64,000 nucleotides of DNA, from positions 434,001 to 498,000 of the forward strand of contig CM057058.1 in NCBI GenBank assembly GCA_029945375.1, given 5' to 3'. This DNA comes from Agaricus subrufescens (Eukaryota > Basidiomycota > Agaricomycetes > Agaricales > Agaricaceae). The position numbers and the translations under genes are program-made. A model generated the notes under the pieces. That model was given only the letters and a program-made list of their open reading frames with translations, was not told the origin of the DNA and did no database searches. Below, piece by piece: positions 10,730 to 63,842 of the stretch; position 1 is the stretch's first letter; each line of letters starts with the position of its first letter.

Positions 10730-11498
10730 GATAAAAGATCCGTGCTGTTATCGGGTGGTCATCATTCCGCCTGGTAACACGTTTCTGACACAAGGATGCT
10801 CGTGGGAGTACTAATGAAGAGCAGGTCAATCAAGTGACCTGAAAATTATATATATTTTTGCTGGACTATTGTCCGTAATGTGGGTTTGTCAACATCCTGC
10901 AGGAATATATGACTGATCATAATTACATACATGCACAGCCGGTGACTATCTGCAGATCTAGAGGAAGAAATGCTCATCAGTCTCACCTAATGCGGCGGAA
11001 GAAGGAGAAAAACTTAAGGGCCACCGTATTTGGCTAATCAGAAGCTCATCGCTAGGCGGTTGTTGTCGGAGCAACTTGGGGAACAAAGGGAAAAAAATTC
11101 GAATGGCCTGTCGATGGTCCATGGCCTTGTGTCTACCACCGCGGTCGTAGGATGGAAGGTGTATTTCTACACGTATATAAGAGGGACCAGTGTATGAGAA
11201 TAGTCAGATCCCACTTCATTAGCTCTTGCTGCTCGATCGTTTGACCTGAGAGGAAGATCTTTATGGCCAACAAAAGAAAGGGGTCGGTCAATGCACTATT
11301 GCTATTCTCGAGTACCACCGTAACACATTTGATGTAGCAAACGCGATAAGCAGGACAACGTGAAGGAGTAAGTGGACAATATCAACACACGCACACGTGA
11401 CTCTCTAACACTCAAACTGCAGTTATACGCCACGAAAGTCCCGGCTTGACGGTGGTTCGGCGCGTCAGACACACCTTCGACCAGACATTGCTGAAGCC
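10730..11498 (+). other. Intergenic upstream of FunK1 copy B
   Basis: I see no gene here. A TATA-like CGTATATAAGAGGG lies near 11172, roughly 330 bp before the copy B start codon. That is rather far to be its promoter unless the leader is long or contains an intron. Confidence 0.4.
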
Positions 11499-16401: not shown

Positions 16402-16953
16402 TGTTATAGTGACCCCGGCCCAGTCCTAAGCTGGGGCGATATGCCACTACCGATAACGCAGTTACTAATAGAGCGTATCAAAGGAGCCTTCTCGGTTGAA
16501 TGGAGATTCAACTTCAAAGGTGATAATACTGAGATGATTATACAAGCAAGAGAGGGAGCTTAGTAATTAAGACTTATAGGTTCTAGAGCTTTTAGATAAA
16601 GGCTTAGTATTAGTCTCCACCTAACCAAGTAGAAACATTGTTTCTACATGGTTGAGTTGAGGGGGTTTATATACTACAGCGAGTATCTACTTATGTAATA
16701 CTAATAAGAGTCATATCCAGTTGTAATTAGTCATAATAAGTCATATCAAGTCATAACTAATCATAATGAGTCATATCAGGTCATATAAGTCCTCCAAGTC
16801 AGTATAAGTCAAAATGATTCATAACTGTGAGTTGGAAGATTCTTGACTTTGCTGACTAAGAAATATTACATAAGAAAAGAGAAACAATATTCAATACAAT
16901 TACATCAGCAAAGGTAGGCATATTAGATAAGAAAAGAAATTGAAATCATAACA
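16402..16953 (-). mobile_element. Solo LTR of the chromovirus family
   Basis: This 552-bp copy is the reverse complement of the LTR at 30431-30980. It starts TGTTATAGTGACC and ends GAAATCATAACA on the plus strand. It is flanked by the 5-bp duplication GGGCC (16397-16401 and 16954-16958), so it is a genuine insertion reduced by LTR-LTR recombination. Confidence 0.92.
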
Positions 16954-16993
16954 GGGCCTGGAGAAGAAATGAAAGGCTGGCTGGGCAAAGCAG

Positions 16994-27613: not shown

Positions 27614-30430
27614 ATGCATCAATTGTCTCACATCACTGTTTACCAGTGTTTAAAACACCGGCCGAGGTCTCACAGTGATGTTAGGCAGGCTAAGCAAACC
27701 TTCTTTGATGAGCACATCAAGAAGATTGCTGATACGGCTCAGCGCCTGTGGGACCTCATAGGCTGGACTGGACCGAGGGTCACACCATCTTTTGAAGCCA
27801 TAGTGTTTCAGGACGCCCCTTGTGTCAAGCTTGCAGACCTGTGGACCACACTCCATACGACCTACAACGGGGGAGCTTTGCTCCCAGTGGATGTTTCTTG
27901 TTTGGATGAGCTGCCTTGTGTCCCTGAACACAAGTGGCTTCCCTTTAGTCACGCAGAGATGAGTGACACCCTTCAGGTGTGCTCTACCCAATCTTCTCCA
28001 GGTCCCGATCACATCACATGGCAGCACCTCAAAGCTGTTTTGCCTTATGAGGAGACTTCCCATCTCATCAGAAGTCTGGCTGATGCCTGCCTTAGGATGG
28101 GCTTCTGGCCAGATTATTTCAAGTCCTCTACCTCAGTTATCATTCCGAAGCTGGGTAAGGCGGACTATTCTACTCCTTGGGTGTACAGGCCTATTGTGCT
28201 CCTGAATACTATATGCAAGCTCATTGAGAAGATGATCTCTATGTGGCTCCAGTTTGAGGGGGTCAAGTTTGGCTTGTTCACTTCTGAACAGTTTGGGGGT
28301 ATCTGGCAGTGCTCCATGTTGGACGCTGGTTTGTTCCTTGTGCACCTGGTTAAGTCTGGGTGGAGCAGGAATCTCGACATGAGTGTCATCGCTTTTGATG
28401 TTGCTCAGTTCTTCCCATCACTCAACCACGACCTGTTGGTGGTGATCATTAAGCGTCAGGGCTTCCCTGGTTCTGTGGGGAAGTTCTTTGCATCTTATCT
28501 AGTCAAGAGGGAAACCTGCTATATGTGGGGCCCCAATCGGTCCAATCCTATGAGGGCGGATGTGGGAGTGGGGCAAGGCTCTGCCTTGCCTCCAGTCCTG
28601 TCTGCTCTCTATTTTGCTGGAGTCTTGCAAGCATTCCATGTGAGGAGCACTCATCTTGAGTGTGACCTCCTGTCTTACATGGATGACGGCACCATTGTGT
28701 GCCAGTCCCGTACCCTTGATGGTAACATTCCTAAGCTTGCGCAGGCTTATGAGATTATGTACTGCATGCTGTCTGACTTTGGCCTCTCTATGGAGCACTT
28801 GAAGTTGGAGCTGTTCCACTTCTTGAGGAGGAGGGGAGATCTGAACCTGTCCATCACACTTCCTGTTGGCCCTAATGGGGCTGGTAACCCCTTGCGCCCT
28901 AAGGCCATTTGGTGGTACTTGGGGTTCTTCTTTGATTGGAAGCTCACCTTCAGGGAGCATGTCTGTTTCTACACCACAAAGGCATTCACTATGGTTCGAT
29001 CCATGGGGATGCTGGGTAATTCAATCGAGGAATTGGCCCTGGATCAGAAGCAGCTGCTGTACCGCTTGTGCGTGGTCCCGGTGGCCACATATGGGTGCGA
29101 GCTTTGGTCTCATTTGGGCACTCAGTGTAAGGGCCTGATGGACACATACAGGAAGATGCAGTGTCGGGCTGCACTCTGGATTACGGGGGCTTCCTGCACT
29201 TCTCCCAACGGGGGGGTTGAGTCGCTTGCTGGCCTCATCCCCATCCATCTACACATCAAGAAGCTCATGGAGCAGTCATCCTATTGAGTTGCCACCCTGT
29301 CCCAGAACCACCCTTGCCAATCTCTGATTGGCCAGGGGGGTGTTGCCAGTGCCTTGCGGCACCAGTTGCACTGGAACAATCTCAGCAAGTCTGTGATATC
29401 CCCCTTCTTTGGCCACATTGTACATCTTGCTTCTTTGGAAGAACACTTTGATGTGGACTCCTCTGAGGCACAGCCTGGGAATTGGGTCATGGATCTCTGG
29501 CCTGATAGGATCCATATCATTGATATTCCGAACAATATCAAGGATGATGCCTTCCAGCAGATCCTCAGGGACTTCCACGTGAGAGCATTGGAGAAGAATG
29601 CCTCTATGGTTTCCACTGATGCGTCGGTGGATCCCAAAGGAGAGAGGGAGGCAGTTGCTGCTTCCCTTGTCTATCATGGGGGAAGGTGAGTTTGCTCTTC
29701 CCGCCACTACAAGGGGCTCTCCATGTCTTTGGACATGGAGCTCGCTGCTATTTGGTGGGGGGTGGTGGGGGCTATTGCCTATCCCAACACCTCATCCATT
29801 GTTCTCTTCACTGATTCAATTTCCATGGTGCAGGCTGCCTTGGATTGTCAAGCTCACTCGGGTCAGGAGCACTCTCTCACCATGTGCTCCCTCCTTTGTT
29901 ATTGGCTAACAGTTAATCTGGAGGCTGAAATTGCCTTTGTCAGAGTGCATTCCGTGCTTCGATGGGGCATCCACCATGAGGCCCACCTCTTTGTCAAAGA
30001 GGCGGCCTATTTCAAGCCTTTGGGCATCAACCCAAAGATGACTCTCCACAAGGTTCATACAGACCTTGCTGACTGGTGCCTGGAGGACTGGAAGCGAAAG
30101 TTTTTGGACCCCAACTACCGTGGACACAGCTTCCTTGACCTGTGGATCGAGGACAAATGGGATCGTCCCAAGTGGCTGAAGCCCACTTATGTGAATAAGG
30201 GGCCTTGGCTTCAACATTCCGGCTATGAGGCGAGGATCTTTGCTTTGGTCTGTCACTGCATCCTGGGACATGCCCCTATCGGGGAGTTTTGGGATAGGTT
30301 TAACTTAGGGGGGTGCCTCGACTGTGAGGGCTGTGGTACTGGTGCTTATCAGACACAGACTCATTTTCTATGGGATTGTTCCCATATATCCAGGCCTAGG
30401 AACTTCTTTGGGGTTCCTCAGGACCCTGGC
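27614..30430 (+). pseudogene. LINE reverse transcriptase and RNase H, 5' part
   Basis: A non-LTR retrotransposon polyprotein that would copy its RNA at the target. The RT shows SSPGPDHITWQHLKAVL, motif A AFDVAQFFPSLNHDL, motif B GQGSALPPVLSALYFAG and catalytic motif C LLSYMDDGTIVCQS. RNase H residues follow (STDASVDPKG, LDMELAAIWWG, VLFTDSISMVQ), then a CCHC-like end (CEGCGTGAYQTQTHFLWDC). The frame is continuous from 27614 to 30430 except for TGA at 29285-29287 and TGA at 29687-29689. No upstream endonuclease is seen, so the copy is probably 5' truncated. It is interrupted at 30430 by the gypsy element and resumes in frame at 38961. Confidence 0.9.
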
Positions 30431-30980
30431 TGTTATGATTTTGATTTCTTTTCTTATTTAATATGCCTACCCTTGCTGATGTAATTGTATCGAATATTGT
30501 TTCTCTTTTTTTACGTAATATTTCTTAGTCAGCAAAGTCAAGAATCTTCCAACTCACAGTTATGAGTTGTTCTGACTTATACTGACTTGGAGGACTTATA
30601 TGACTTGATACGACTCATTATGATTAGTTATGACTTGATACGACCTATTATGACTAGTTACAGCTAGATATGACTCTTATTAGTATTACATAAGTAGATA
30701 CTCGCTATAGTATATAAACCCCTCAACTCGACCATGTAGAAACAATGTTTCTACTTGGTTAGGTGGAGACTAATACTAAGCCTTTATCTAAAGCTCTAGA
30801 ACCTATAAGTCTTAATTGCTAAGCTCCCTCTCTTGCTTGTATAATCGTCTCAGTATTATTACCTTTGAAGTTGAATCTCCATTCAACCAAGAAGGCTCCT
30901 TTGATACGCTCTATCAGTAACTGTGTTATCGGTAGTGACGTATCACCCCAGCTTAGGACCGGGCCAGGGTCACTATAACA
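30431..30980 (+). repeat. 5' LTR with internal promoter
   Basis: 550 bp, starting TGTTATGATTTTG and ending GGGTCACTATAACA. It contains a series of TATGACT-like short repeats, a TATATAAA box at 30711-30718 and a 19-bp palindrome at 30736-30754. The family also occurs as solo LTRs at 16402-16953 and 62930-63481. Confidence 0.97.
30711..30754 (+). promoter_or_regulatory. LTR TATA box and 19-bp palindrome
   Basis: TATATAAA at 30711-30718 is followed 18 bp later by GTAGAAACAATGTTTCTAC, a perfect palindrome around one base. Given usual TATA spacing, transcription would start near or within the palindrome, placing a hairpin at the RNA 5' end. The same arrangement is in the 3' LTR (38686-38693, 38711-38729) and the solo copies. 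Confidence 0.6.
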
Positions 30981-31662
30981 TTAAGTAGAAACGTTCCTTC
31001 TCCATTGCTTGGAGACAAAACCGTTTGCTGCCCCATAAAACCCTAAACAAACGCTAGCGATCGTCAATTTTAGGGGTCGTAATAAAAGCACAAAGCTGTC
31101 CAAAAACTATTTGTGTTATTATTACCAGGAGATTGACGGCACCTGCCAACTAGGGAAATAGTTGAGGCTGAGCCTACCAGCTAAGCGAGGTCGCGCTTAT
31201 AAAATATATGGGACGGTTGTTGTACTGACTGCAGACTGTAATTGAAGTCTAGCAGGTCACATAACACAACTGTAGGAGGCCTGAAGAGGCTAGAGAATCC
31301 TAGTGAATCTCAGGTTACTGGAATCGGTACTGACGAAGTCACAAAGTCCAGTACAGAGTTTGGAATGACTATAAACGGATCTAGTACTGTGGAAGGAACG
31401 ATCAGAAGTCCAGAGAAAGACTATAAACTGTCTAGTACAACTTGTCTGAAAAGACTTAAATCCGCCTTTATAAAGGGAAAGGATAAATTGCCAGCGGGAG
31501 ACGAGAATCAAATCTCACCAGCTGAAGGGTATAAATATATATCAACTAACAAATATAACTTAGGCACCATAGACGGAATAAACGTAAAAACTAAAATTAC
31601 CACAACTGAATCAGAAGTTACCAATTCAGTCGAAATCAATACACCCACATCAAAGACAATTA

Positions 31663-38405: not shown

Positions 38406-38955
38406 TGTTATGATTTTGATTTCTTTTCTTATCTAATATGCCTACCCTTGCTGATGTAATTGTATCAAATATTGTTTCTCTTTTTTTACGTAATATTTCT
38501 TAGTCAGCAAAGTCAAGAATCTTCCAACTCACAGTTATGAGTTGTTCTGACTTATACTGACTTGGAGGACTTATATGACTTGATACGACTCATTATGATT
38601 AGTTATGACTTGATACGACCTATTATGACTAGTTACAGCTAGATATGACTCTTATTAGTATTACATAAGTAGATACTCGCTGTAGTATATAAACCCCTCA
38701 ACTCGACCATGTAGAAACAATGTTTCTACTTGGTTAGGTGGAGACTAATACTAAGCCTTTATCTAAAGCTCTAGAACCTATAAGTCTTAATTGCTAAGCT
38801 CCCTCTCTTGCTTGTATAATCGTCTCAGTATTATTACCTTTGAAGTTGAATCTCCATTCAACCGAGAAGGCTCCTTTGATACGCTCTATCAGTAACTGTG
38901 TTATCAGTAGTGACATATCGCCCCAGCTTAGGACCGGGCCGGGGTCACTATAACA
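38406..38955 (+). repeat. 3' LTR
   Basis: Same sequence as the 5' LTR with about eight substitutions by eye, preceded by a purine-rich GAAAGGGATAA that may serve as polypurine tract. Confidence 0.97.
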
Positions 38956-38960
38956 CTGGC

Positions 38961-40412: not shown

Positions 40413-40420
40413 CAAGTTTC

Positions 40421-40523
40421 GGGGCAGGTGACGATCGAATAACGTCTGAGGCTCGCATGACCGGTCGTTTTGAACACGTACAGAGGGTCGTGAATTTCAT
40501 TCTCACACTGCCCTTATACACTA
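40421..40523 (+). repeat. Left terminal inverted repeat
   Basis: Starts GGGGCAGGTGACGATCG. Aligned without gaps to the reverse complement of 54528-54630, 81 of 103 bases match by my count, including the shared GGTCGTTTTGAACACGTAC. Confidence 0.93.
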
Positions 40524-40559
40524 TTATATAAGGCTACGGTATCATGATACTGTCCAGAA

Positions 40560-40935
40560 TAACATCGAGACTCTCAGACTAGAGAGTATTATAGTACTCC
40601 ATCTATGACAATCACAGAAAGGGGGGATTGCGGCCCACACTCTCTATAGCTTCAGAGTATTACAATACTCTTAATTTGTTGAAGGAAGGGAGTACTATAA
40701 TACTCTTTTGCAGTAGAGAGTACTATGATACTCTTACTTTGTGAACAGGGGGAGTATCATAATACTCTTGACAGCCTTGCAATTGAGAGTACTGTAGAAC
40801 CCGCTCTCTCGAAAAGATGAGAGTACCATAGTACTCGCTCTCTTGAAAGAGTGAGGGTACTATAATACTCTCTGGAATAAGAGTACTATTGTACTCTCTT
40901 CCGATTGAGAGTACTGTGATACTGTTACTTGGTCT
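40560..40935. repeat. Left array of near-palindromic units
   Basis: About ten degenerate units of the form GAGAGTACTATARTACTCTC, separated by spacers of variable sequence. It lies just inside the left TIR and directly upstream of the F-box gene. Confidence 0.9.
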
Positions 40936-41116
40936 AAATAAAGCGCTGGATGGAGGTACCAATTTTCTTATCGGCACCCCTATCAGCACATCCTCTCTTT
41001 TACTACTTACACTTATCGACGTCCACTCACTACATCAACTATTCAAAGGTAGCATGTCCATTTATTTAATGTTGACATTATATCTTGCTCATATCTGTGC
41101 AATCTGATCTCGTAGC

Positions 41117-42459
41117 ATGGAATCTCACGAACGTCAATCAGCTGCCACTATTGATGACTTACCAAACGAAGTGCTTCTTCGTATTATTTCTGACTCGATC
41201 AACTTCCATTGGGAGCCCCATGAGTGGAGCCCTTATACCTATCAGCACTACAAAACTCGGGCCATCCTGTATAGTGTGTCTCGTCGATGGCATGACTTAA
41301 TGGGCCTATCCCCGGAGTTGTGGACGTCATTTACCATTGGTGATGCATGGGGATCTCCATCTGACAGTAACACCACTACTCTGAGCTCCGACCTCCTTGC
41401 GTTATGGCAGGATCGATCCCAGCCCTGGCCCCTCCATCTTCATCTCTATAGTGGTCCTTACGGTCCACATGGCACACAGTATGACGACGCTTTTCATATC
41501 TGGACTGGGTTACTGCCATCAATTAACAGGTGGTGTCATATTGATTTGGCATTTGAAGAAGAGATGGTAGAGGCCTTCCTCAGATTGGATCTCCCTCGTG
41601 TGGGACTGACAGAAATATGCGCATCATCTCATGTTGGCCGTCGATATAACGATCAACTTTTGACTGCTTTTGGCCAATTACCAAATCTCACAAAGTTGGT
41701 ATGGATTTCGGCACCCCATTCCGAGAAACCAGACCAACCCAGCTTCCTTAACTCCCTTCATCTATTTCCATGGTCACGTCTTTGTCATATTTCACTCGAG
41801 GTTTGCTGGACTCTGGCTGAGTTCCGCTCATTCTTCAAATCCTCAACTTCTGCTGAAACAATTCGACTCAATTTGGATCAACACCCTGCTGGGTTACAAA
41901 TTGATGATTTGGACAGCCCAATATATTTACCACAGCTCAGGTATGCTAGTATCTTTTACATCTCAATGTTTATAAGTAATGACACAATATCAGAGCTCTT
42001 GGAATTCAGTCCGATGCAAGTGGATATAAGTATCTTGGATGCCTGGAGCTACCAAACATCCAATACCTTGCCGTCTTTCCAAAGATTGTGCTATCTGAGA
42101 TCACATCTGGCTGGGAACATGCCCCCATTTATGTATGCCCAGCATTCCAAAGCTTTCTTGAGCAGACGACTTCATCTATACAAGCCATGGTTGTTCAGGG
42201 ATACCCATTTTCAGGTGCAAGTGCTATTCATTTTTTCAGCAATGAGCACTTGGCCTACATACCTGTCCTAGAAATTGAGGTAGGAGAAGGAGTTGCTACT
42301 GATGTTGTAGACTATGTTGGTTTGAACCAACCTTTGATAGCTCAACATTTGAGCTGCCAAGGTGGAACAGTAGGATGGTGCTATGACAAAATAAGACGTC
42401 AAACACTTTTGAATACGTTTTCTACATTGTCTTCAAAATTTCATGACTTGGTATATTAG
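41117..42459 (+). CDS. F-box protein with LRR-like C-terminal part
   Basis: Two exons, 41117-41940 and 41994-42459, split by a 53-bp GT-AG intron (GTATGCTAG...TATCAG). Joined, they give an intact frame of 1,290 bp, 429 residues. The N-terminal F-box reads IDDLPNEVLLRIISDSI with the later SRRWHDLMGLSPELWTSF, the part that would bind Skp1 in an SCF ubiquitin ligase. The rest has leucine-rich stretches typical of agaricomycete F-box proteins (LPNLTKLVW, CLELPNIQYLAVFPKI). The substrate is unknown. It lies inside the 14.2-kb transposon, converging on the transposase gene with only about 56 bp between stops, so I regard it as cargo or an element-adapted gene. Confidence 0.85.
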
Positions 42460-42515
42460 TTACATTTAGATCTATTACCATGTAGTCCATTCAAGTAAAT
42501 ACTTTCTATTAAAAG

Positions 42516-45500
42516 TTACATATGTTGCATCCTCAAAATTTTGAGGCGATTCCAGATTGAGATAAAGACAGAGGTGTACAATATAGCTCTATCCTGTCCC
42601 ATGTACCGAACAGATTTACGAATTTTGGCCAACCCACCATTTCCACATTCTGCTGCACTGGAATTAATTCTACCAAGTATAGGCTGTGTTTGGACATATG
42701 TTTTAAGGAAAAATGCTGTTGAACAGCGTGTATGCCCAAGAGCGTGGAAATCATCAATAAGAAAACTGGTGTCTGCAAAGAATTCGGGTTCTCGTGCACG
42801 GCAATATGGTGCTAGTTGGCATGCAAAGTCATAGATAACATACTTTGGAGCTTTAGGCCACCGCATAACTAGAGCAGAAAAAACATCATTACGACCCTCA
42901 CTTTCAGGGATAAAGTGAAAGCCATAGCAGATGCTATGAGTGCACCAAGCAGCCATGATCCCCCCAGTTAGCTTGTTCTCACCATATTCACCATAATACT
43001 TGTTACATAGACCACCACGCTCTTTAGGCTCCTTTGAAATGTCACTTGGAAAGTTTGAGTATTGTGGTCGATGCCGTATCTGTGGTAAGCTATACTTGCA
43101 GCCACTCTGATAAAATATGTCAGAATACAATTATTATAATGTTAGTGCCAAGACTTACTGTTTTCCAACCACCATCCACAGTAGCCCCAGCAGCAATCAG
43201 TGGAGGAGTATTGTGAGGGACTGAACTTTGAATGACTTTGTTTACTCTTTTTTGAATCCATTCAAAGGCAGTCAGCAACTCGGGCGAGAATTTCTTGTTT
43301 TGAGCCCATTGATGACTGGCCAGAAGATACAGACATGGGATAAGTGACAGTTTAGACACAGTTTCATCAGAAGGCATCATGAGGAATGATTCTAGAGCCT
43401 TCAACGCAGGTCGGTTGATGACCTGCATACAAGATTCATTTGTCGAAATCTATTATCATCCAAAATAGCATGAGATATTTGGAAGCTAACGCTATAAAAT
43501 ACATACCTGTGAGAAAAACTTCCTAACTTCTACCGGTGGCTCTCCTTTATCCCGAAGTTGTGAAGAGTCATAATAATTCATCAACAAGGGTAGTAGACCT
43601 CCACATTTTTTGCTGGTGAGTTCGATAGCCTCTTCTATTTCACGGAGTTTTTGAATTGTTGCGTCAACAGATTTCAAATCAATATGTACCTACATATATG
43701 TTAAAATCCCAGACGTGGTTGAGATTGGTACACTTACATTGGATAATACATCACCTACTGAGAGTGGTCCACTTGTAACTGACGAGAGTACTTTCCTCAA
43801 GCGAGTATCATCAATAAAACACTGATTCTTGGGATATCGCTGGTCTCGAGAAATGGCATCATGGTGCTTTGACGTCGGTGGGTAAATCGTATCCAGCACT
43901 CGCTTCTTGCTATATCCTAACGTTATTCCATCCCAGATCACCGTCTCAGGTACTGGGCCACATCGAGGGCATATCATGTCACCGGAGAGGTCCAGTAAGT
44001 CAATGTATCCAAACCAAACTTTTCTGAAGACCGATTCTTCTACAAATGACGGTTGGGCAGGCCTTGACCATTTACAATATCGTCTAAGGACAACCTTTAT
44101 CCACGCGCTAAAGGGTGTTTCGGACGAGGTGAAAGCAGACGTATATTCATCTAGCAGGTCGTGGGAGAACAAGAGGTTGTTGTTATAGTTGAATATTCCC
44201 AATTCCCGACAGTCAGGCCCGATGGTTTTACTGGCATAACGAATGGTCTTGCAATTGGGGCACTTTTGGAGTTGGATGCAGGTGGAAATGGGCCTCAGCA
44301 GGGTGTACACCGTACATGGTTTTTCAATGATATCAGCTTCTTGATGAAACGGATGGCCACAGCTGCATCGCGAGTTTGTCGTCAGCACAATGGGGTTGGG
44401 CACATCTGCTACTGGCGGTGGCTCATCATAGAGCATTCGGTCGGTTGAAATCTGTGCCCAATCGGACACCATTATGGGCAAGTATGAGATATTATGCTGG
44501 CTCGCCTTGACCAGTGGCACAGACTGATTGCGAACATGATCTAAGAACGGACTCAGCGGATGATAAACAATAATTACTAGAGTCGACTCACCTGTTATAG
44601 CTATACTGTCATCGCTTATGCCATGGGTCGCCGTGAGAAGCTGCCCGAGATAAGCCTGGCAATTTGTTACATGTGCACAACCGTTTGTTCCATCTCGTGA
44701 ACATCGCCATTTCCCAAACCCAGTGTCGGGACCCACATATGTTACGACGACTCTGTTCTTCGCCATGGAATGTGTCCCCTCGAGGCCGACGGAAAACAGA
44801 TTCAACCAGCCGTCTTCTACGGCATCTCTCCAGAACAAAATGACAGGGTTAATGTCGCCTTGGTATTCTAGTGAGCATGGGTTGTCAGCAGGAAGTATAG
44901 GCGGACCTGGTACTATTGAAGGAGTGCAAGGTTCTTCTTCAGTCAGGTAGCGTTGATGGATGCATGTTTCTCTGTCTCTGGCGCAGGGACAGTAGCAGAT
45001 GGGTACGAGAATGCCTGCTTCGTTTCGGTGTATTTGAACATGATACCAGTAATGCTTTATCACGGTTAGTCATACCGTGAAAGCTGTAGCTGCGACCCTT
45101 CACTCACCGTTCTTTTCCCTACTCTAGAATCCCATCCTGTCACGACATAAAGGCTGGGCGCGAGTTGAAAAAACGGGATCGCTTCGGTCATCACAGCTTC
45201 CGCAAAAAGCTCATAGGTATCTATAGAGCTTGTTTCGTCACCAGGTAGTGGCGAGGCATCGACCATCAATGCGTCATTTTCAATGACAAACGGATCCAAT
45301 GCAAGTCCTCCTCGGTCGTCTTCAAAATGACTTAATGGCTGTACTGCAGCCATGTCTGACACAGCTGTCGATGGCTCTGCCTGGTTGGAGGATCCCTCCG
45401 GGTTTGACATTGGCCTGGCGCGCATGGAGACTACGAGGCGTCTCTTCTTCTGAGGTGAGGGTTTCAGTTCCGATTCTGGTCGCGTCGTTAACGCTGCAGT

Positions 45501-45590
45501 GCCATTCTTTCTGGTCCCTGGAGGGCGTTGAAGTATGATATGAGTGCCGGGCGGCGGGGTAAGAAAGCGGCGAGGTTTGGGGTTGGGCAT
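42516..45590 (-). CDS. KDZ-type transposase with Cys clusters
   Basis: Predicted to excise and insert the element. It starts at ATG 45590 (MPNPKPRRFLTPPPGTHI) with a basic KKRRLVV segment, and exon 1 ends at 45108. A 53-nt intron leads to exon 2 at 45054 (HYWYHVQIHRNEAGI). The N-terminal half has Cys clusters of the KDZ-associated kind: WRCSRDGTNGCAHV, CSCGHPFHQ, CPNCKTIRYASKTIGPDC and MICPRCGPVPETVIWDG. The catalytic half shows GIMAAWCTHSICYGFHF, then acidic residues in YVIYDFACQLAPYC, LIDDFHALGHTRCS and SSAAECGNGGLAKIRKS, which fit a D-D-E RNase H-fold transposase of the KDZ group. Introns occur near 43690-43740, 43430-43500 and 43100-43160. I see no stop in the exons. It ends RMQHM at 42516. 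Confidence 0.87.
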
Positions 45591-45721
45591 TTGATGGAGG
45601 AACGTGTGGAACAACTTCAAGATGTGCAACGTACGACATTCACAGTATCGTCGTACTCCCCAACATTGATACGACTCCTGTTGCCTGACAAAGCCCCAAA
45701 AAGTTGACTCCGGTTCTAATG
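45591..45721. promoter_or_regulatory. Bidirectional promoter region
   Basis: Only 131 bp separate the start of the transposase gene (minus) from the ATG at 45722 of the divergent coiled-coil gene, so the two probably share control elements. I see no defined motif. Confidence 0.5.
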
Positions 45722-46938
45722 TCACCCGCTCAACCGAGGAAATCAGCCAGGCTACCTAGATTGGGTGAAGCTGCTGCCGTGAGCTCAGCTCGGGCGCCCA
45801 GAAGGTGTCACCGGTGCCCGGATTTTCCATTGAAATCCACATGTGGGTGTTCTAGACGACGGGTTGTTGTATCGAACGCGAAGGTTCGTAGTGATTTTCG
45901 TTTATGCTCAGTGAGCGCTGAGTGACACTCTTGTTGTCTAGAACAACACTAGTGTTGCCTTTGGCGACTCAATGGTAAGTAGATGCGTGGTCAGACAACA
46001 TGTTCTACTAGCTCATGGATCAGGGGCTACAACAGGAACGTGAGCCGACACAGGCTCCATTATCGAATGGCAACACTCCTACTGGCCGTCCGAGTGCGAT
46101 TGACCGCGAGATCACATCACCGCCCATCGCTCTTAATCACAATTGGGCAATTGATCCCACTCTGCTGGCTGATGAACAAGCCCGTGTTCAAGACTCCACC
46201 TCGATCGCTGAACAGGTTGGGAGTGAAAATGGAGATGAGGGCACTAGGGGAAACTCGGAGGCTGGAAAAAGAGCGAGTCAAAGATTAACAACGACCCAGA
46301 AAGCCGCGAAACATGGAGTTGTGGATGGTGTAATGAAGGGCAATGCGGTCTATAGTTCGATTTTTCACCTACCATTGGAAGTAGAGCCTAATGTTGGACA
46401 GGGGTGGTGCGGCAGAACGACAAGCGAACCCCAATTTCGGACGCTTCCTCCGCGACCACGAGATACAATCGAGAATTGCCTTTAATCATTTCTAGGGTAA
46501 GTGGAAGACGTATACTCGCAGACTGTGAACTGGTTCTGACGTTTGAACGATAAGGCTGAAAGAATGGCACTGGAAACTGATGCTTATGTCCTTGTATTGG
46601 CACAGCAAGCAACGGGCTCATCCGCGTCGATCCATTTCGCTTCCAAACGGTTGAGAAGAGATGCATTTGATGAGTGTGCCAACTTAGTCAACGAATTTCA
46701 ATCGTTGATGACCCATTTGGTTATTGCTAAACGTTCGACGACATTGGCTCTGTCACAAAACCTGGAGGCATCCGAGAAGGCGCGTGCGCAGGCGGAGGAA
46801 ATGCTGGTGGAAAGGGAAAACGCCGTAAGCAGCGCCGAAGCGGAGTTGGCTGCTTCGAAGAGGGCCAACAATGAATTGATGTCCCAGTTAGAGACACTTA
46901 GAAGTAGCTTGGCTTCGCAGTCTCAACCTGATAATTAA
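45722..46938 (+). CDS. Cys-motif, coiled-coil protein, unknown role
   Basis: The ATG at 45722 opens MSPAQPRKSARLPRLGEAA, with a compact Cys motif RRCHRCPDFPLKSTCGCSRRR. After introns (donor GTAAGT at about 45974, acceptor before CTCATGGATCAGG) comes a polar region (LTTTQKAAKHGVVDGV). The last exon (about 46543-46938) is helical with an Ala/Glu-rich coiled coil (SEKARAQAEEMLVERENA, AELAASKRANNELMSQLE), ending at TAA 46936. One join near 46370-46500 is unclear and may contain a stop. I do not recognise the family. Its position, divergent from the transposase, suggests an accessory or DNA-binding partner, but that is inference. Confidence 0.6.
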
Positions 46939-46960
46939 TTCTGTATCAATTTCTGTATAT

Positions 46961-47763
46961 ACGAGGTTCATAAACTTATATGGCGCCATCCATGCCTTAC
47001 TTACTAGTAGGACTGAAATACAAATGTTGTCAGCATATTCACTCAGTGTCGAACAAGATCTGGGGAATATCCCTTGTATGCATTGCTTGACTTCGTGTAT
47101 GTAAGTGGCTCAATTTCTGTATATACCCGATGGACGTTTCATGAAGAATCGGCGCTGGCGATATGATAACGAGCAAATCGGAGAGCATGTCCATGAGGAG
47201 CGAATATCGCACAAGGGACAAGTCAAACGCAATTTCACAGCCGAGTTGACTTCTAGGTTTGAATATTCCGATTACGACTAGAACACGCAAGACGAGGTTC
47301 ATACAATTATATGGTGCCATCCATGCCTTACTTACTAGTAGGGCTGAAATACAAATGTTGTCAGCGTATTCACTCAGTGTCGAACAAGATCTGGGAATAT
47401 CCCTTGTATGCATTGCTTGACTTCGTGTATGTAAGTGGCTCAATTTCTCCGATGGACGTTTCATGAAGAATTGGCGCTGGCGATATGATAACGAGCAAAT
47501 CGGAGAGCATGTCCATGAGGAGCAAATATCACACAAGGGACAAGTCAAACGCAATTTCACAGCCGAGTTGACTTCTAGGTTTGAATATTCCGATTACGAC
47601 TAGAACACGCAAGACGAGGTTCATACAATTATATGGTGCCATCCATGCCTTACTTACTAGTAGGGCTGAAATACAAATGTTGTCAGCATATTCACTCAGT
47701 GTCGAACAAGATCTGGGAATATCCCTTGTATGCATTGCTTGACTTCGTGTATGTAAGTGGCTC
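46961..47763. repeat. Tandem repeat, about 322-331 bp unit, 2.5 copies
   Basis: Units start at ACGAGGTTCA: 46961-47291 (331 bp), 47292-47613 (322 bp) and a partial 47614-47763. The length difference is mainly a short deletion in the second unit near CAATTTCT. Open frames on the minus strand here only reflect the repetition. Confidence 0.93.
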
Positions 47764-50001
47764 ATAGACCATCCAATCCTCAATTGTAGGGCAGGACCAC
47801 ACATATTGTCTGTGTTTGATCTCAGTTTCAAAAAGTGTAAGTGGCCTATGATTCATCTATTCCCTAAATTGTACACATGAACTACACATAAAGCATAAGT
47901 CTCGAGACCATGAAAGTCAGATCTCGCTCTGTGGCTATCCTGCTTCAACAACGTTGACCTGACACATGCATTTCAACGTGTACAGTGAGTGAAACATACT
48001 CAGTTGTAGAAGGACTTGGCGTCTTACTGCAAAGTATTAAAGGAAGGGCACAAAGTATGGACGAATAGGCAAATATGGCGAGGGAGTGGAAGAGGATAAC
48101 ATCGTTGCCTTTACTCCGCGCGACCGTTGATATTGTCCGTTGATATTGTCTCAAGAGGCTTAAAAGCCGATGGAAAAATTGGGTGTCTTGAAGAAAGGGT
48201 ACCTGAGTTGCTAATTACACTGTTGCTTGCGACATGAACTAGCGCAATAGGTGGGGTACAGTTAATGCATTGGGATACATTGGCGGTGACTCAATACTGA
48301 TCGGTTGAGCAACACCACTGAGTGATACGACGTGAGCGGGACATAGATTACGGATGACGGTGCGGTATGATTATGAATATACGGGGAAACGATACATGCT
48401 TGTAGATTTATAACAATGGAATTACAAGTATATACTATCACTTAGAACGTAGATTGGTAGGGATCCTCTACCAATCTACGTTCTAAGTGTTCACTACTTA
48501 AGTGTTCACAACATAGATTTTATATTATAACAGAGAAGAATATGGGCGCGAGAGCTGGCAAGAAAGTTCAAAAGCGTGATTTGCGTTTAGTTAATGAGTA
48601 CTCAACTTTTCGAAGGCACAAAAGCGGCGGCGAATGCAACTGGGAAAGCATGTGTATGGGAAAAATGGCATGGCCTAGATCGGAGGTGAGTAGATTGTTT
48701 AGGAAATTCGAGCTGAATACTTGCCTAGGGTGACAACGTAGGTAGATTGGCGCCGCCAGACAATGTTGACAACGTTAAATAAGAATAAGTAGTTGTGGGC
48801 GGAAGAAAGTAAGTAATATTAGAGAGGGATTAAAAGCTAAAGACGATACACGAACCTTGCGAATCCGGGACTGCAGAGTCTTTGGCAACAGAAAGAAGCA
48901 TCGGGTTAGACTCTGGATGAAAAGTGAAATTAGTTTTAGAATGCTTCAGCGAGTGACTTACCTTGTATGATGCGCAAAAATAAACCGGGTAAGCAAGGAC
49001 ACGAAAAGGAGGCTACCGCCAAGTGTCCTACATATGGAATGTGGGTCGAAAGTGATATAATTTTGGTGGAGTACGCACCTTGAAGAGGCGGGGAGAGTAC
49101 GCTATGATGCGGATGTAGATTAGTGGTAGTCATGACCTAACTTAAGTTTGTGAGTTCGTACTCATACAAGAAATAGATAGACGGAACCATGAGGAGGCAT
49201 ACGGCTTGCACGCTGAAGGTGCTTGGGTGGCGTCCAGACAGAGCGTAGCTTACTAAAAATGCATTTAGTATAATCGTGCGAATGTTGCAGGAGACATAGA
49301 AAACGTAGCTGAGAGGAATCATATGAATCGCAAGCAAAATAAGGCGACGCTAGGTCGAAAGAGAAGCAGCGGATGTCATAAGAAGTCAAGGATGAGTATA
49401 TGCTCGTAGTGGAAACAGAAAACGACACACCTTCCCATCGCAGCAGAATGATCCCCCGCGACGAAACGCGCAGATAAGAATGGGAGCCCTCTCGCGGAAA
49501 GGACGTTCCACATTGCAGACGGCTGTCCATTGTTCCCGCTGGAGCAAGCCGACGCAAGGGAAAGTGCTGGCATACGCCGAGCGCGAACCTTCATATCAGA
49601 CATAGAAATATCCGATATCTGTAGAAGGGAGCACCGTGACCTCTTGCCCGAGGCCGACTCGCCCATTATCGCCGTCGCACTCGTAGCATACCGCGGGCGC
49701 TCGGTAATGCAGTGAGATGAACATTGACAATGGTTGAAGACGGCAGAGGTGGGGGTAGCTAAACACACGCCAGACAGGTGTTGCTCAACTTATATATTGA
49801 TCGAGGTCGCATTGATAGGGGCCCGAGTCACGTTGTAATGGATCCTGACTTGTCGGATAAACGGAATATCGTAGGCCCTGCTATGGAGCTGGACGGTGCA
49901 GATCGTACTTGTAATAAATGCAATGTGGAGTGTTAAGGTCGTTAGGAATCAGGTGATTGCTTGATAACAACATTCACCAAATATTGACAAACTTGGTTCA
50001 T
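47764..50001. other. Element interior without recognised gene
   Basis: Short open frames exist on both strands (for example minus 49376-49768) but none has a motif or convincing exon structure. It contains the hairpin at 48439-48489. Confidence 0.4.
48439..48489. repeat. Perfect hairpin, 22-bp stem, 7-nt loop
   Basis: The arms 48439-48460 and 48468-48489 are exact complements, around the loop GGATCCT. It is the longest perfect short inverted repeat I see in the element. Confidence 0.95.
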
Positions 50002-50519
50002 GTGAATGTTATACCCTAACCCACCTTATCGTCTGCCTTGGCTGCCCCTATCATCGCAATCAGACAGGGGAGTAGCCACGGTTCTAATGGGAGGGGCTAC
50101 TATTCGATCACGTTGGTATGTCTCCCTCTTTGCTATTGGCTGCCCTTTGTGAATGTTATACCCACTCGTCTGCCTTGGCTGCCCCTATGGTCGCAATCGG
50201 ACAGGGGAGAAACCACAGTGGAATGGGAGAGACTAGTATACTATTCTATCACGTTGGTATGTATCCCCTCTCCCTATTGGCTGCCCTTGGTATTGACTGG
50301 ATATCGGACATGGAGAGGCGGAACTGCCGCACTATGCAGATACCCCTGTCATACGATATTGAACATCCATGGAATTACAGTTCTGTACCCACTCGAGGCA
50401 GAACTGCCGTACAGTGCCGATGCCCCTATCATACGATATCGAATAGCCATGGAACCACAGTTCGGTGCCCACTCGAGGCAGAACTGCCGTACTATGCCGG
50501 TTCCCCTGTCATACTCGGT
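50002..50519. repeat. Two adjoining tandem repeats, 147 bp and 80 bp
   Basis: A unit of about 147 bp starting GTGAATGTTATACC occurs at 50002 and 50149. It is followed by an exact-period 80-bp unit starting GAGGC(G/A)GAACTGCC at 50315, 50395 and 50475 (the last partial). They lie directly upstream of the coiled-coil gene and may be part of its promoter. Confidence 0.88.
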
Positions 50520-50570
50520 TAAAACGTCCCTTCGAAGTCCCATTTTTTCAACCCCACCCAGTGACCTATC

Positions 50571-53040
50571 ATGGCTGATCGTGAGTGAGAGTTATTTCGC
50601 GAGACTCGGTGCTGATTATTCCGTAGACACCAAGCTGCTGCAGATAAAGGTTGATAAGGCGCATGCCAAACTCGCCGAATTCGAGTCCACAATGTCTGAC
50701 CTGGAACACGCAAAAGAGGCCGGATTATTGAAGCGAGGCGATGGTGGTGAGAAAAACCAATATTTATTCGCGTTGTGTCATTGAATAAAACTTCCTTTTA
50801 CCAGCTAGAATGCTGAGATTGCAAGGACGGATTAAAGGAGCTAGGCTTGCGCTCACTAATGCCGAGAAGAAACTCAAGGGCGCTTTGCCTGAACAAGCGG
50901 TACGTTTATTTCATGTCCTGACCTTAAATTCATCACGAGCCGCCCCAAAGTCCATCGATCCGCAACCTTCGACTGTGATTCCAGGGTCTGATGTACCCAT
51001 AGATATAGTCAGTATTTGAAGTAACATGTATGTGATGCATCTGAAGCATCGTAGGGGGCTCAAGATGATCCGCTCTTGTCGAAAAACTCCGACGTTTCGA
51101 TGGATACTGCTGTAAGTTATCTAATCGGAGTACTTGCTTCGCCCGAAGGCTAACACTACTTTGTAGGGCACCGATAATGTCACGAGCCAGCCTCCATTAA
51201 TCCATCAAGATAATCGGCTTGCAGTCATGAGTCCCAATGTTTCGCAGACAGGGGACATGGTGTGTGGATATCTGATCCGATCTTGCCGCATCTCACATTA
51301 TACATGGCTTCATAGATTGTGGACGACACTGCATGCAGCCAGCAACCGATCCTGCCAAATGTATCCACTGAACAAACCCCGAATCTGCTAGTACAGCCGT
51401 CCGGCACGATCATTGAAGCCGTGATAAGTCAGCCCCAAAACTTACTGGCCGAAGGAGCCGATAAGTTGGTCATACAGCCGTCAAGTATCATCAATGACAA
51501 TGAGGTCCTCCCTGATCCAGAGATAGACGATGTAACAGCCAATCGTCAAAGTAACACGACCTTATCGAAACATACCGAACAAGGTGAACATCAAAATGAT
51601 GAGGAATTGCTGGGGGAAGTTGTGGGTTTGAGCCTGATTACCTTAGAGGATAGTAAGTTGGGAGGCGTAGTCACTTGATTGTTAATGCTAATGCGCTTCT
51701 ACGGTAGAAGCGGAACTGCAACAGCACCTATTCAAGACTAGGTTTACCAAGGGACCGCCACCAAAGAAAAGCCAGTTGATTATCTATATCTCATATAATA
51801 ATACTTATTTTAGGGGCCTATCAGAAACGAAATACGTGGATGTGTCCAGTTCGGATGCCGAGGGCGATGATGGTATCTTTGTTGATGATGAAGCCGAACC
51901 GACAGGGGTGACCGGTCTCACCCTACCTAGCAACCCCATTCCCACTGCTGGTGCCCAGCCGAAATCTGTATTGCCTTCCAACAGCCATCAACAACCTGAG
52001 GAAGGTATCTCGAAGGGCAAGGGTCGTGCAGAGAACGTTAAAAGTCAGAAAAGGAAAGCGCCAGCAACATCAAAAACGAAGGCAGAAAAGCTACTGATAA
52101 GTGGTGGGAGGAATGCTGAGCCAATGGGCGTGAGTGGCGAAGGTAAAGATTCGGATATAGAGGGGATGGACCATGGCGGTGAGACAAACCTCATGCGAGT
52201 GTATATAACCACTGACCTCTTAATAGAATATCGTGCTTTGGATTACTCCGTGGCCAAGGCCGATCGTGAAATGAAGGAATTAGAGAAACTCCGTGTTCGA
52301 TACAGTGACAAGGGTTGGTACTTTCTAAATGATATTCATAACTTTGACTAAAATTGTGCTTAGGGGCTCATAGGCTGTTAGCTGAAAAGTGGCTAAACGC
52401 AGCAGAGGAGGAACAGCCCAAGTTCCCTACCAGTATGATGTGAGTACGACGTGATGCCGAGTACCTCCCCGATCTCGTGACTGCCGACTACGATCTCGCC
52501 TTGCAATTGCTGATGAATAAGAGCAAGAATTATCTTTGTATCCCGCACACCCTCCTGGACCGCAAAATTGTTGCACCCATTGACAACCTTGAGGGCCCTG
52601 TCCGGATCCTTGGAATACCTCTAGCCCGAAATCAGAATCGAAATGCGAGCTCAAACATCCCTCGTGTTCCGAACCATCTTCATTGTGGTTGCCATGAGAA
52701 GGTGGCCCTCGCTGGCTTTGTTATGTGGAAAACTTGGAAGGCCCGGTGGATCATTGGTAACAAGATGGTCATCGAAGGTCTTCACCAGCAAAAGCCATTC
52801 AGCCCGCAAGAAGTTTTGTTCTTTTTGCAGTTTTTGAAGAAGAAATTTGGGTTCACGGTCGAAGATATGTTTACGGGATCATTGGATGAGGAGGAGGATC
52901 CAATGAAGGAAGGTGATATGTTGGAGAAAACTGCCATCCACTGTGCTCTTCGCCGCTACCACAAGACGGGCAAAAAAATGACATTCAACATTGATTATTC
53001 ACAGGTACTGGAGGAGGATTTCGACCAGGAGTGGATTTGA
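50571..53040 (+). CDS. Coiled-coil protein of unknown function, cargo gene
   Basis: The ATG at 50571 is followed by a 46-nt intron (50581-50626). Joined, it reads MADHTKLLQIKVDKAHAKLA and continues as an N-terminal coiled coil (ESTMSDLEHAKEAGLL, GARLALTNAEKKLKGAL). The middle is polar and acidic over several small exons, with a basic stretch KGRAENVKSQKRKAPA and an aromatic/charged helix EYRALDYSVAKADREMKELE. The C-terminal exon (LVTADYDLALQLLMNKSKNY, HCGCHEKVALAGFVMWKTW, FSPQEVLFFLQFLKKKFGFT) looks like a folded domain I do not recognise. A TGA at 52441-52443 interrupts the frame before that exon. It could be a nonsense change or belong to an intron starting GTGAGT at 52440. The role is unknown. 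Confidence 0.6.
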
Positions 53041-53199
53041 TGGCTGGTACGTTGTTTTTTCATCACTACGACAAATCGTACTAATTAGTTTCCATTACAA
53101 TTTACGTGGTAGTAGTTTACAGTATAAAGTACTATAGCTTTTTCTTTGTGCTTAGCTCTAACATGTCGGAATGAGATTTTGTACTATTTTCGATACCGT

Positions 53200-54460
53200 T
53201 ATGAGCCCAGAGTACTAAACTACTCTGCTACCATATGCCTTTGTGACGAGAGAGTACTATGGAACTCTACATCGATGTGGAGAAAGTACACCCTCCATTG
53301 AGACAGAGAGAGTATTACAGTATTCTCTGTGTCGACACACAGGAGAGTATTATAGTCCTCTATGTGCCGATTAGGAGAGAGTATTACTCTGTGTTGATTG
53401 CGAGAGAGTATGATAGTACTCTCTCCGTTATAGTACTCTCTTGTGATTGACACAGAGAGTCTATGAGAGAGTATGGTAGTACTTTCTCCCTCGATCGCAA
53501 GAGGGTATTGTAGTACTCTCTCCGTCAATCGCGAGAGAGTATTGTAGTACTCTCTCGGTCAATCGCGAGAGAGTATTGTAGTACTCTCTCCGTCGATCAC
53601 GAGAGGGTATTGTAGTACTCTCTCCATCGATCATGAAAGAGTATTGTAGTACTCTCTCCGTCGATCGCGAGAGAGTATTGTAGTACTCTATCCTATAGAT
53701 AGGAGAGGGTTCTACAGTACTTTCTCTGTCGATCGTGAGAGAGTATTGTAGTACTCTATCCTATAGATAGTAGAGGGTTCTACAGTACTTTCTCCGTCGA
53801 TCGCGAGAGAGTACTGTAGTACTCTCTTCTATAGGTGGCAGAGAGTTCTAGAATACTCTCTCTCTAGGGATAGAGTATTATAGTACTCTCTCTTATAGAT
53901 GGCAGAGAGTTCTACAATACTCTCTACGTCGATGGGAAGGGAGTATCATAGTACTCTGTGCATCAATGGGAGAGAGTACCATAATACTCTCTCTTATAGA
54001 TTGCAGAGAGTTCTACAATACTCTCCACGTCAATCGGAAGAGAGTACCATAGTACTCTCTCTTATAGATTGCAGGGAGTTCTACAATACTCTCTATGTCA
54101 ATGGGAAGGGAGTATCATAGTACTCTCTTCATTGATGGGACAGAGTATCATAGTACTCTCTGTGTCGATGGGGGAGAGTATCATAGTACTCTCTGTTGTA
54201 GATGCAAGAGAGTTCTACGATTTTCTCTCCATCCACCACGAGAGAGTACTATAGTACTCACTCCTATAAATGGCAGGGAGTTCTACAGTACTCTCTGCCC
54301 GATTAGGAGAGGGTACTGTAGTACCCTCTCCGTCTACCGCAAGAGAGTATTGTTGTACTCTCTGCGTTGATCGGGAGAGAGTACTGTAGTACTCCCTCTC
54401 GATTGCAAGGGAGTGTATGGTATAATACTCTCGCTGTCAGTATTATAGTTCTCTCTTTTT
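53200..54460. repeat. Right array of near-palindromic units, 34-bp period
   Basis: Roughly three dozen copies of GAGAGTATTGTAGTACTCTC-like near-palindromes, in the regular part spaced every 34 bp by a linker such as TCCGTCGATCGC. Towards the right the linker changes to TTATAGATTGCAG-like. It lies just inside the right TIR and matches in kind the smaller array at 40560-40935. Confidence 0.95.
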
Positions 54461-54527
54461 CTGAGTACAGGCTGGAAGCCATTCATACATTAATATGCAT
54501 AGGCAGTACTATAGTATGGTGTTCCCA

Positions 54528-54630
54528 TGGTATATAAGGGCCGTGTGACAATGAGACTCACGGCCTCGCGTACGTGTTCAAAACGACCTGTCGTGCGAGC
54601 CTCACGCGCTATTCAACCATCACCTACACG
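54528..54630 (-). repeat. Right terminal inverted repeat
   Basis: Ends ...CACCTACACG. Its complement aligns gap-free with 40421-40523. Confidence 0.93.
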
Positions 54631-54638
54631 CAAGTTTC

Positions 54639-61907: not shown

Positions 61908-63842
61908 TGAAGAGACTAGATCAGTGTAAATGTGGAAAATAAAATATAAAAATATAAAATCAAATGTGAATGCAACCCTTTGAATTACACCGAGTCTTGA
62001 GTGCGGTTTGTGGGGAGAATAAATCAGAAAGAAAGTGAAAGTAAGCGTCTCAATTAAGTATTAAATGAAAATAGGGGTAGAATAGAAATGTGAAACAAGT
62101 CTCGACTGAATAGAGACCTCTTCCAGACCTGTGCTGTTTTAATTAGAACCTTCACAACAAGGGGCTAAGCTTGCAACAACTGTCCTCTATAGGATGGGTT
62201 AGACACCTATCTAGGAGGGGTAGCGAGTCCACCCTAGTGATGCCTCAACAAACTCAGAGAGCCTTGACCTGCCTTCATGCTTCAAGACAGACTGCAAGAC
62301 AAGTTGAGCTAGCACCAAATGCTATTGCAATCCTATTAGACCAGTGAGGATACTCTCTCAAGCAGAACACAAGTCCTTCCAAGTTGAGAAAGAATTTTAA
62401 GAAATGCTTAAAACACTGCAAAGTTTAACCAAACTCAATTTCACTCGCACAGTGCTTGGGCAAAGATTTGATATTGAACCTTGTCCTCAACTGGCGACTA
62501 TATACAATACACAATAAAAAACTGAGACAAAATAAACAAATATGAAACAAATAACCAAGTCTGTATCCAGCACTGAATGGGTATAGCCTCCTTGACTCTT
62601 CTTCTTCCACCAATCAACAGTCTTGACTATTCAGTCTCCTCGACCAAACATCGCACTTGCCGAATCCCTCACTCTTCATTGGCTAACAAGGTTCCAACCC
62701 TAGACCCTAGTTTAGGAACCCTTGCGACTCATCCCCCACTGATCAACCCATTGATAAGATGTCCTTGATTAGACCAAATTTCCGTCTCGCCTCCAGTTGC
62801 TTCAAGATTATCAGCATTGCTACCTAATCCGGAGTCTCAACTGATAATTCCGACAGCCTCGCTCCAATTCATTCAGTCTCGACATGTGCGAATCACCCAT
62901 TTCCTAGCCTTTCCATATCAGGCAGGTAGTGTTATAGTGACCCCAGCCTGGTCCTAAGCTGGGGCGATACATCACTACCGATAATGCAGTTACTGATAGA
63001 GCATATCAAAGGAGCCTTCTCGGTTGAATGGAGATTCAACTTCAAAGGTGATAATACTGAGACAATTATACAAGCAAGAGAGGGAGCTTAGTAATTAAGA
63101 CTTATAGGTTCTAGAGCTTTTTAGATAAAGGCTTAGTATTAGTCTCCACCTAACCAAGTAGAAACATTGTTTCTACATGGTCAAGTTGAGGGGTTTATAT
63201 ACTACAGCGAGTATCTACTTATGTAGTACTAATAAGAGTCATATCCAGTCGTAATTAGTCATAATAAGTCATATCAAGTCATAACTAATCATAATGAGTC
63301 GTATCAGGTCATATAAGTCCTCCAAGTCAGTATAAGTCAAAACAACTCATAACTGTGAGTTGGAAGATTCTTGACTTTGCTGATTAAGAAATATTACATA
63401 AGAAAAGAGAAACAATATTCAATACAATTACATCAGCAAAGGTAGGCATATTAGATAAGAAAAGAAATTGAAATCATAACAGGTAGTAGTTATAGATTCA
63501 GTCTAGCATAAGGTCTGCTAAAGGAACCGTGCTCCACTAAGTCCTCAAGCCATCCCATAGCCAGTTTTGATGATAATTCACAATAAAGTCTCCCTAGACT
63601 CAGCCTCGAGACTTCCGTTTTAAAGTCCTTGAACACGATTATATTTCCCCTAACAGTACAATTTTCCTGCTAGGAACCACGGATGCAATCTCGACTGATC
63701 CCTAGTTCACCCTGTCTTCACACATGCCCTCAACTGATCTCTTTACTAACAGGGTGACTGATTACTTGTTCTCAAGTCTAATATGTACACCTAGCAGCAT
63801 TAAACATACATTTTCACGTGTAAAACGGCTGGGGCTGTAACA
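61908..63842 (-). repeat. LTR-like repeat, copy 2, inverted, interrupted
   Basis: The reverse complement of 19672-21035, enlarged by a solo LTR (62930-63481). Its right end, read in reverse, is TGTTACAGCCCCAGCC, and its left end is TGAAGAGACTAGATCAG. No flanking duplication is seen. Confidence 0.8.
62930..63481 (-). mobile_element. Solo LTR inside the LTR-like repeat
   Basis: 552 bp, same family and orientation as 16402-16953, flanked by GGTAG at 62925-62929 and 63482-63486. Copy 1 of the host repeat lacks it at the corresponding place (near 20025-20035), a second proof of insertion. Confidence 0.93.

Follow-up and report, generated by a model that had tools for sequence, protein, structure and literature searches.

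Among the nearest counterparts of the element treated here, a transposon of the KDZ superfamily in Agaricus subrufescens, are KDZ1-3 of Cryptococcus neoformans: mobile elements of ~9-11 kb with terminal inverted repeats (TIRs) of 139-241 bp, among which KDZ1 (~11 kb, 241-bp TIRs) makes 8-bp target site duplications (TSDs) and KDZ2/3 make TSDs of 4-8 bp (PMC12810828; also PMC12510652; here and below, papers are cited from their accessible portions). Zisupton and the described Dileera element have 8-bp duplications, Kyakuja has 7-bp duplications and no TIRs, and several elements carry TET/JBP genes, proposed to counter silencing (PMC12730594). The families listed for A. bisporus comprise 4 Kyakuja and 14 Zisupton (PMC7473861); intact KDZ transposons accompany CxC2 in Pleurotus (PMC7641404), and in Ganoderma KDZ and F-box-like are merely listed among Pfam domains (PMC8955403). 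Fish have F-box::CxC7 genes and an F-box in a Zisupton isoform; the accessible portion of that study reports that no evidence was found for F-box capture by transposable elements (PMC12062965). The window analyzed here is a stretch of 64,000 nucleotides, C2:434001-498000 of the 44.65-Mb A. subrufescens genome in 44 contigs (numbered C1, C2, C3 and so on), and it holds a 14,210-bp KDZ element with a likely F-box gene aboard, whose product would be an adaptor for protein degradation.

The element lies at window 40421-54630 and is enclosed by an 8-bp direct duplication. Its borders and the corresponding empty site are:

40413-40420, no strand: left TSD CAAGTTTC (sequence; empty site).
40421-40524, plus strand: left TIR, transposase side, starting GGGGCAGGTGAC (end comparison; the terminus recurs in copy 2 and in the relative at C2:401293-416848, both described below).
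54527-54630, minus strand: right TIR, outer end CGTGTAGGTGA on the reverse strand (end comparison).
54631-54638, no strand: right TSD CAAGTTTC (sequence; empty site).
10041-10048, plus strand: single CAAGTTTC in a paralogous empty site (flanks homologous over about 9878-10730).

The initial annotation had described a KDZ transposon with gap-free TIRs of ~103 bp and 81 matches, an exact 8-bp TSD at both borders, and a natural empty site in the same window. This observation is real and is confirmed here. Re-alignment gave the same count (81 of the first 103 positions, ungapped), and a 161-bp query with one TIR retrieved the opposite TIR (E = 3.2e-19); identity is 2/5 over the outermost five bases (GGGGC / CGTGT) and 80/99 over positions 40426-40524. 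The joined flanks of the element align through window 10041-10048 at 87.7% over 407 bp spanning the junction and at 87.0% over another 376 bp. A 2.1-kb direct repeat (window 7024-9103 and 11469-13569, 78% identity) flanks the empty-site paralogue on either side.

The interior of the element holds the following features:

40525-41100, no strand: left subterminal palindromic repeats (16-mer motif, up to 2 mismatches, 10 times in 576 bp).
41117-42459, plus strand: likely F-box gene, predicted exons 41117-41940 and 41994-42459, 429 aa (Pfam F-box-like; A. bisporus relative; open reading frame [ORF] in the relative element).
42516-45590, minus strand: predicted transposase with a CxC4 cysteine cluster and a KDZ domain, 5 exons, 954 aa, no internal stop (splice model; domain search).
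45719-46938, plus strand: predicted gene A, with an N-terminal exon bearing a C-x2-C...C-x-C motif (from about 45719, by eye), then 46015-46354, 46402-46496 and 46555-46938, C-terminal coiled coil (comparison with the relative element and with P0002).
46961-47764, no strand: 322-bp tandem repeat, 2.5 copies (repeat search).
49526-49764, no strand: segment B, kept in relatives (DNA matches).
50789-53040, plus strand: gene C, whose last ORF, 52444-53040 (198 aa), is conserved (60% over 198 aa in the relative element; relatives P0006-P0008).
53200-54526, no strand: right subterminal array of 34-bp units with GAGTACTATAGTACTC-like palindromes (27.7 copies at 53465-54398; 31 motif matches in 1,321 bp).

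The 16-mer palindromic motif occurs once in the 12,100 bp between the subterminal regions and not at all in the 49,774 bp of the window outside the element.

The transposase model keeps four introns that join conserved ORFs; the automatic splice search over-split the gene. CxC4 (PF18717) scores 154.5 and 151.9 bits (cut-off 26.9), and KDZ (PF18758) scores 28.9 bits on the last-exon ORF (Pfam cut-off 26.6). Candidate D, D, and E residues for the catalytic acidic triad are visible in the model. The KDZ domain, the CxC cluster, and the TIRs with an 8/8 TSD of the Zisupton/Dileera kind place the element in the KDZ superfamily, as first proposed; an 8-bp TSD and ~100-bp TIRs set it apart from the Kyakuja subgroup. 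Tet_JBP, which would mark a TET-bearing element, was not found in the subset of the element's ORFs that was scanned. Relatives of the element were absent from the viral contigs and plasmids searched, and Rfam gave no match at gathering thresholds.

Like KDZ1-3 of C. neoformans, the element combines a KDZ transposase with a CxC zinc cluster and has long TIRs and, as in KDZ1, an 8-bp TSD. However, KDZ1-3 have CxC1 instead of CxC4 and are smaller, and no F-box gene is mentioned in the accessible portion of their description. With the TET/JBP-bearing fungal KDZ elements it shares base-exact borders and an accessory gene aboard, but this gene is an F-box gene, accompanied by genes A and C, rather than a TET/JBP gene. 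As in fish Zisupton, an F-box domain is associated with a KDZ/Zisupton element; in fish, however, it is a domain of a Zisupton isoform or of host fusion genes, whereas here it is encoded by a separate gene inside a fungal element. The term F-box is absent from the main text of PMC12730594, the accessible portion of PMC6416283 holds nothing on F-box cargo, and in the open-licence literature searched (KDZ or Zisupton with F-box) we found no F-box gene in a fungal KDZ element and no paper on CxC4 together with a transposase. On the other hand, base-exact KDZ elements with TIRs and 8-bp TSDs are in print, both KDZ1-3 (PMC12810828) and TET-bearing elements (PMC12730594); thus, the earlier statement that cargo-bearing KDZ elements delimited to the base are rarely documented is too strong with respect to structure.

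A second copy, at C2:985936-1047909 (copy 2; 61,974 bp in total), has the termini of the window element (left GGGGCAGGTGAC, right CACCTACACG) and is flanked by AGCGGTTG and AGCAGTTG, which are identical at 7/8 bp. It has an empty site of its own: on contig C3, at about 3594045, the same flanking sequence holds a single AGCGGTTG and no element. Copy 2 consists of window 40421-43680, a 36,728-bp insertion, window 43677-46623, an ~11.4-kb insertion, and window 46617-54630, and it carries the whole gene set, broken by the two nested insertions. Its identity to the window element is 97.9% over 40690-43680, 99% over 43700-46600 (from a search match), 96.6-97.5% over 46617-54630, where the repeat number differs, and 82% over 40418-40923 (532 bp, left repeat region). 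Across window 46617-49030 copy 2 is shorter by 648 bp, a difference close to two of the 322-bp tandem units. No C1 match was present among the 13 matches listed for its left flank. The initial annotation suggested looking for further copies with 8-bp duplications and the same gene set, and considered that its proposal would fail if no other copies had these ends, if their borders lay elsewhere, or if the two repeat halves had been joined by assembly error. These conditions do not hold: copy 2 provides the same borders at another site together with all genes, its duplication being 7/8, and the C1 duplicate described below has these borders too. The larger nested insertion (C2:989398-1026125) has the ends CACTGCGTGCGG...CCGCACGCAGTG and a 4-bp AATC repeat and is perhaps a large CACTA-like or composite element; the smaller one (C2 about 1029072-1040452) lies in gene A, with ends near CATCAGGAAAATGTTTT.

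A full-length match on C1 also has the same borders (99.75% over 14,229 aligned positions). Its interpretation as an independent insertion is ruled out: its flanks match along with the element in an inverted block (C2 398266-538000 versus C1 1842000-1702264) of at least 139,753 bp at 99.69% that includes both element flanks. Thus, the C1 copy is no evidence of transposition. Rpb2-type genes are found at three places in the genome, as expected of one haploid set; therefore, we attribute the block to duplication at this locus or to local retention of a second haplotype. Paired KDZ matches suggest that the block extends to C2:733k / C1:1507k.

A divergent relative at C2:401293-416848 (15,556 bp, reverse orientation) has corresponding termini and an exact 8/8 duplication, GTAAAAAC; the 8-bp target duplication is thereby seen at three insertions, the window element, copy 2, and the relative, at 8/8, 7/8, and 8/8. 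The relative falls within the C1/C2 block and has a C1 duplicate. Both copy 2 and the relative hold the gene set between the same termini, which supports the earlier inference as far as insertion of the full 14,210 bp together with its genes is concerned. The right end recurs in two differing flanks (C2:1102265 and C9:1201473), exact over the 14-mer CCATCACCTACACG; a search with this 14-mer at one mismatch gave 19 matches (five exact) versus 7 for the reversed control. A solitary right-end-like sequence, TGTGTAGGTGATAG, lies at C2:398673, 2.6 kb outside the relative.

The genes other than the transposase had initially been regarded as cargo. This holds in the sense that they were inserted with the element as a unit, but gene A, segment B, and gene C recur at near-constant positions in relatives, and only the F-box gene appears to be lineage specific. 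We measured distances from 24 CxC4 stretches of >=300 bp obtained from DNA matches (seven 135-bp CxC4 matches and short side matches were left out): gene A lies at 2.5-2.9 kb in 17/24 places, segment B at 5.2-5.8 kb in 9/24, and gene C at 8.1-8.8 kb in 16/24, and a single place of the 24 is without any partner. These counts are rough lower bounds, with 40 of 45 and 40 of 65 candidates scored, a variable query start, and duplicated blocks counted repeatedly. Offsets for the window element and its C1 duplicate were taken from window coordinates, and gene C at +8.5 kb from C2:1091853 was counted by hand, the script having given the gene C of a neighboring element. The KDZ column of the spacing table covers 15 of the 94 KDZ matches in the genome.

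Between the window element and the relative at C2:401293-416848, the proportions of nonsynonymous and synonymous differences (pN/pS) are 0.06/0.84 for the KDZ last exon, 0.17/0.83 for CxC4, 0.18/0.90 for gene A, 0.23/0.79 for gene C, and 0.34/0.81 for F-box exon 1, and the corresponding rate ratio (dN/dS) is 0.07 for one middle transposase exon and 0.37 for the second F-box exon. Nonsynonymous change is below silent change in 7/7 stretches compared, with silent sites near saturation. Copy 2 gene A exon 3 (83%, two stops) and CxC4 (no match) are cut by the nested insertions and were left out. Because spacing is near constant and protein sequence is kept over saturated silent sites, gene A, segment B, and gene C appear to be a conserved set in many relatives, not random cargo. 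Named relatives of gene A all come from A. bisporus (3/3 listed matches, 47-69% identity), and the coiled coil of one of them, P0002, is modeled with a predicted local distance difference test score (pLDDT) of >90. The initial annotation had spoken of two coiled-coil genes: a long coiled coil is indeed predicted for the gene A relative, but the structure model of gene C (four sequences) failed, with a mean pLDDT of 39. A MADS-like reading of gene A, made by eye, is unsupported by Pfam, the model being confident only in the coiled coil.

The F-box protein is 54% identical to A. bisporus P0005, which has a precomputed PF12937 assignment (1/1 listed named match), and the relative at C2:401293-416848 has an F-box ORF 46-47% identical to that of the window element. 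By protein search, three lineages have the F-box gene next to the transposase: that of the window element with its copies, C2:401293-416848 and its C1 duplicate, and C2:1069185-1077061, where it is interrupted and has stops. A fourth element, on C3, gave no F-box match, and repeat-like frames occupy the corresponding space. Outside these elements, the nearest F-box matches lie at C6:956758 and C9:677852, with 33% identity; none of the listed KDZ or CxC4 matches falls within 50 kb of them, which suggests a host origin of the gene. In A. bisporus var. burnettii, the relatives of gene A (Agabi119p4_10714) and of the F-box gene (Agabi119p4_10716) are two locus tags apart, and the contigs that hold them have identical listed lengths. 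Unlike the A-B-C set, the F-box gene has the appearance of a gain confined to certain lineages.

We conclude that window 40421-54630 is very probably a KDZ-superfamily transposon that entered an 8-bp target as one unit, carrying its accessory genes and a likely F-box gene; the predicted CxC4-KDZ transposase that it encodes is the likely agent of this cut-and-paste insertion. At the level of sequence, this is indicated by the borders and TSDs, by two independent insertions with empty sites, by a second copy with the gene set, by a relative with the same termini, and by protein conservation in the stretches compared. The genome is crowded with KDZ matches, and nested insertions and neighboring elements are seen in it; a shorter KDZ unit could therefore have moved long ago, with the F-box and other genes being host DNA trapped between nested or neighboring KDZ ends. 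Such a composite is quite improbable, as copy 2 and the divergent relative share gene order between the same termini, A, B, and C keep a near-constant distance to CxC4 at many places, and coding constraint is seen in the stretches compared. The extensive match between C1 and C2, together with paired or tripled equal-score places elsewhere in the genome, might instead suggest that segmental duplication, or a second haplotype left unpurged, gave rise to the window/C1 pair and to other repeats without any transposition. However, such an origin accounts for nothing beyond the C1 copy: copy 2 lies in different flanks and comes with a TSD and an empty site of its own, and the number of Rpb2-type places is that of a haploid genome. 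We give this explanation almost no credence.

Several findings weigh against insertion of the window element as a unit by its own transposase, or against the identities given to its genes. No movement was observed, and it is past insertion that the two empty sites support. The TSD of copy 2 is only 7/8, and copy 2 is probably dead, since the nested insertions hit its transposase and gene A. The relative at C2:401293-416848 is probably dead as well, because a stop codon interrupts its KDZ frame and another interrupts gene A (a further KDZ stop lies inside a predicted intron); no clean empty site was located for it, one flank match ending 51 bp before the border. The whole 954-aa transposase model scores 24.9 bits for KDZ, slightly below the cut-off, and the F-box-like Pfam score is 21.8 bits, under the cut-off of 24.3. 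Both structure models (gene A relative and gene C) are mostly of low confidence, and the functions of gene A, gene C, and the F-box protein are inferred. F-box exon 1 of the window element differs from that of copy 2 by 10 nonsynonymous and 2 synonymous changes, which gives no sign of constraint, the two copies being too similar for a constraint test. On balance, the evidence is good for the structure and for insertion as a unit, and the roles of the accessory proteins are hypotheses.

This last comparison, between the two closest copies, also bears on whether the F-box gene is a neutral passenger, captured once, slowly decaying, and irrelevant to transposition. Of the genes compared it shows the weakest constraint, the corresponding space of the C3 element has repeat-like sequence and gave no F-box match, and the gene is disrupted in the third lineage. 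On the other hand, the aligned F-box exons are free of stops in the window element, copy 2, and the relative; about half of the exon 1 residues are kept although silent sites are saturated; and the A. bisporus counterpart lies two locus tags from the gene A relative. A passenger gene is thus a possibility we take seriously, though we lean away from it.

As a mechanism for the KDZ transposon, we propose that the 954-aa transposase binds the long inverted ends and that gene A, with its zinc-type cysteine motif and coiled coil, and gene C would encode accessory transposition proteins, which perhaps bind the palindromic subterminal repeats. The F-box gene would derive from an F-box family of the host and would have been retained for a benefit to the element: its product may tag a host protein involved in silencing or repair for degradation, a step that is the weakest of the proposal. 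A broader scenario, which we consider rather unlikely as it stands, is that an Agaricus-type KDZ clade consists of multi-protein transposons (transposase, zinc/coiled-coil protein, and gene C acting on palindromic subterminal arrays) and that one branch captured an F-box gene that turns host protein degradation against silencing, as proposed for TET/JBP via DNA demethylation. The F-box gene of the window element has a parallel in the TET/JBP cargo found in other KDZ elements, and it is a direct candidate for F-box capture by a transposon, a scenario for which the accessible portion of PMC12062965 reports no evidence. Insertion as a unit at two independent places, with a likely F-box gene and at least two further conserved genes beside the predicted transposase, suggests that elements of this kind acquire helper genes and retain them. 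This base-exact fungal KDZ element makes the role of each gene testable: its accessory genes are conserved, its predicted transposase has no internal stop, and empty sites occur naturally for two insertions.

Other repeats and KDZ-related loci were noted in passing. A ~550-bp repeat is present in the window in four copies (16402-16955, 30430-30983, 38406-38957, and 62927-63483), which are 94-98.5% identical and occur in both orientations. Genome-wide, Tet_JBP is found at only three places (C2:3846077, C7:2235142, and C14:163711), with equal scores and none of them in the element; each is ~70.6 kb from a CxC4 place, these also being of equal score, and the three are likely a triplicated block. 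Eight KDZ matches (C2:3503157, C2:3589249, C13:1189014, and one each on C20, C29, C30, C37, and C41) score identically at 121.8 bits and perhaps represent a different, recently amplified KDZ family.

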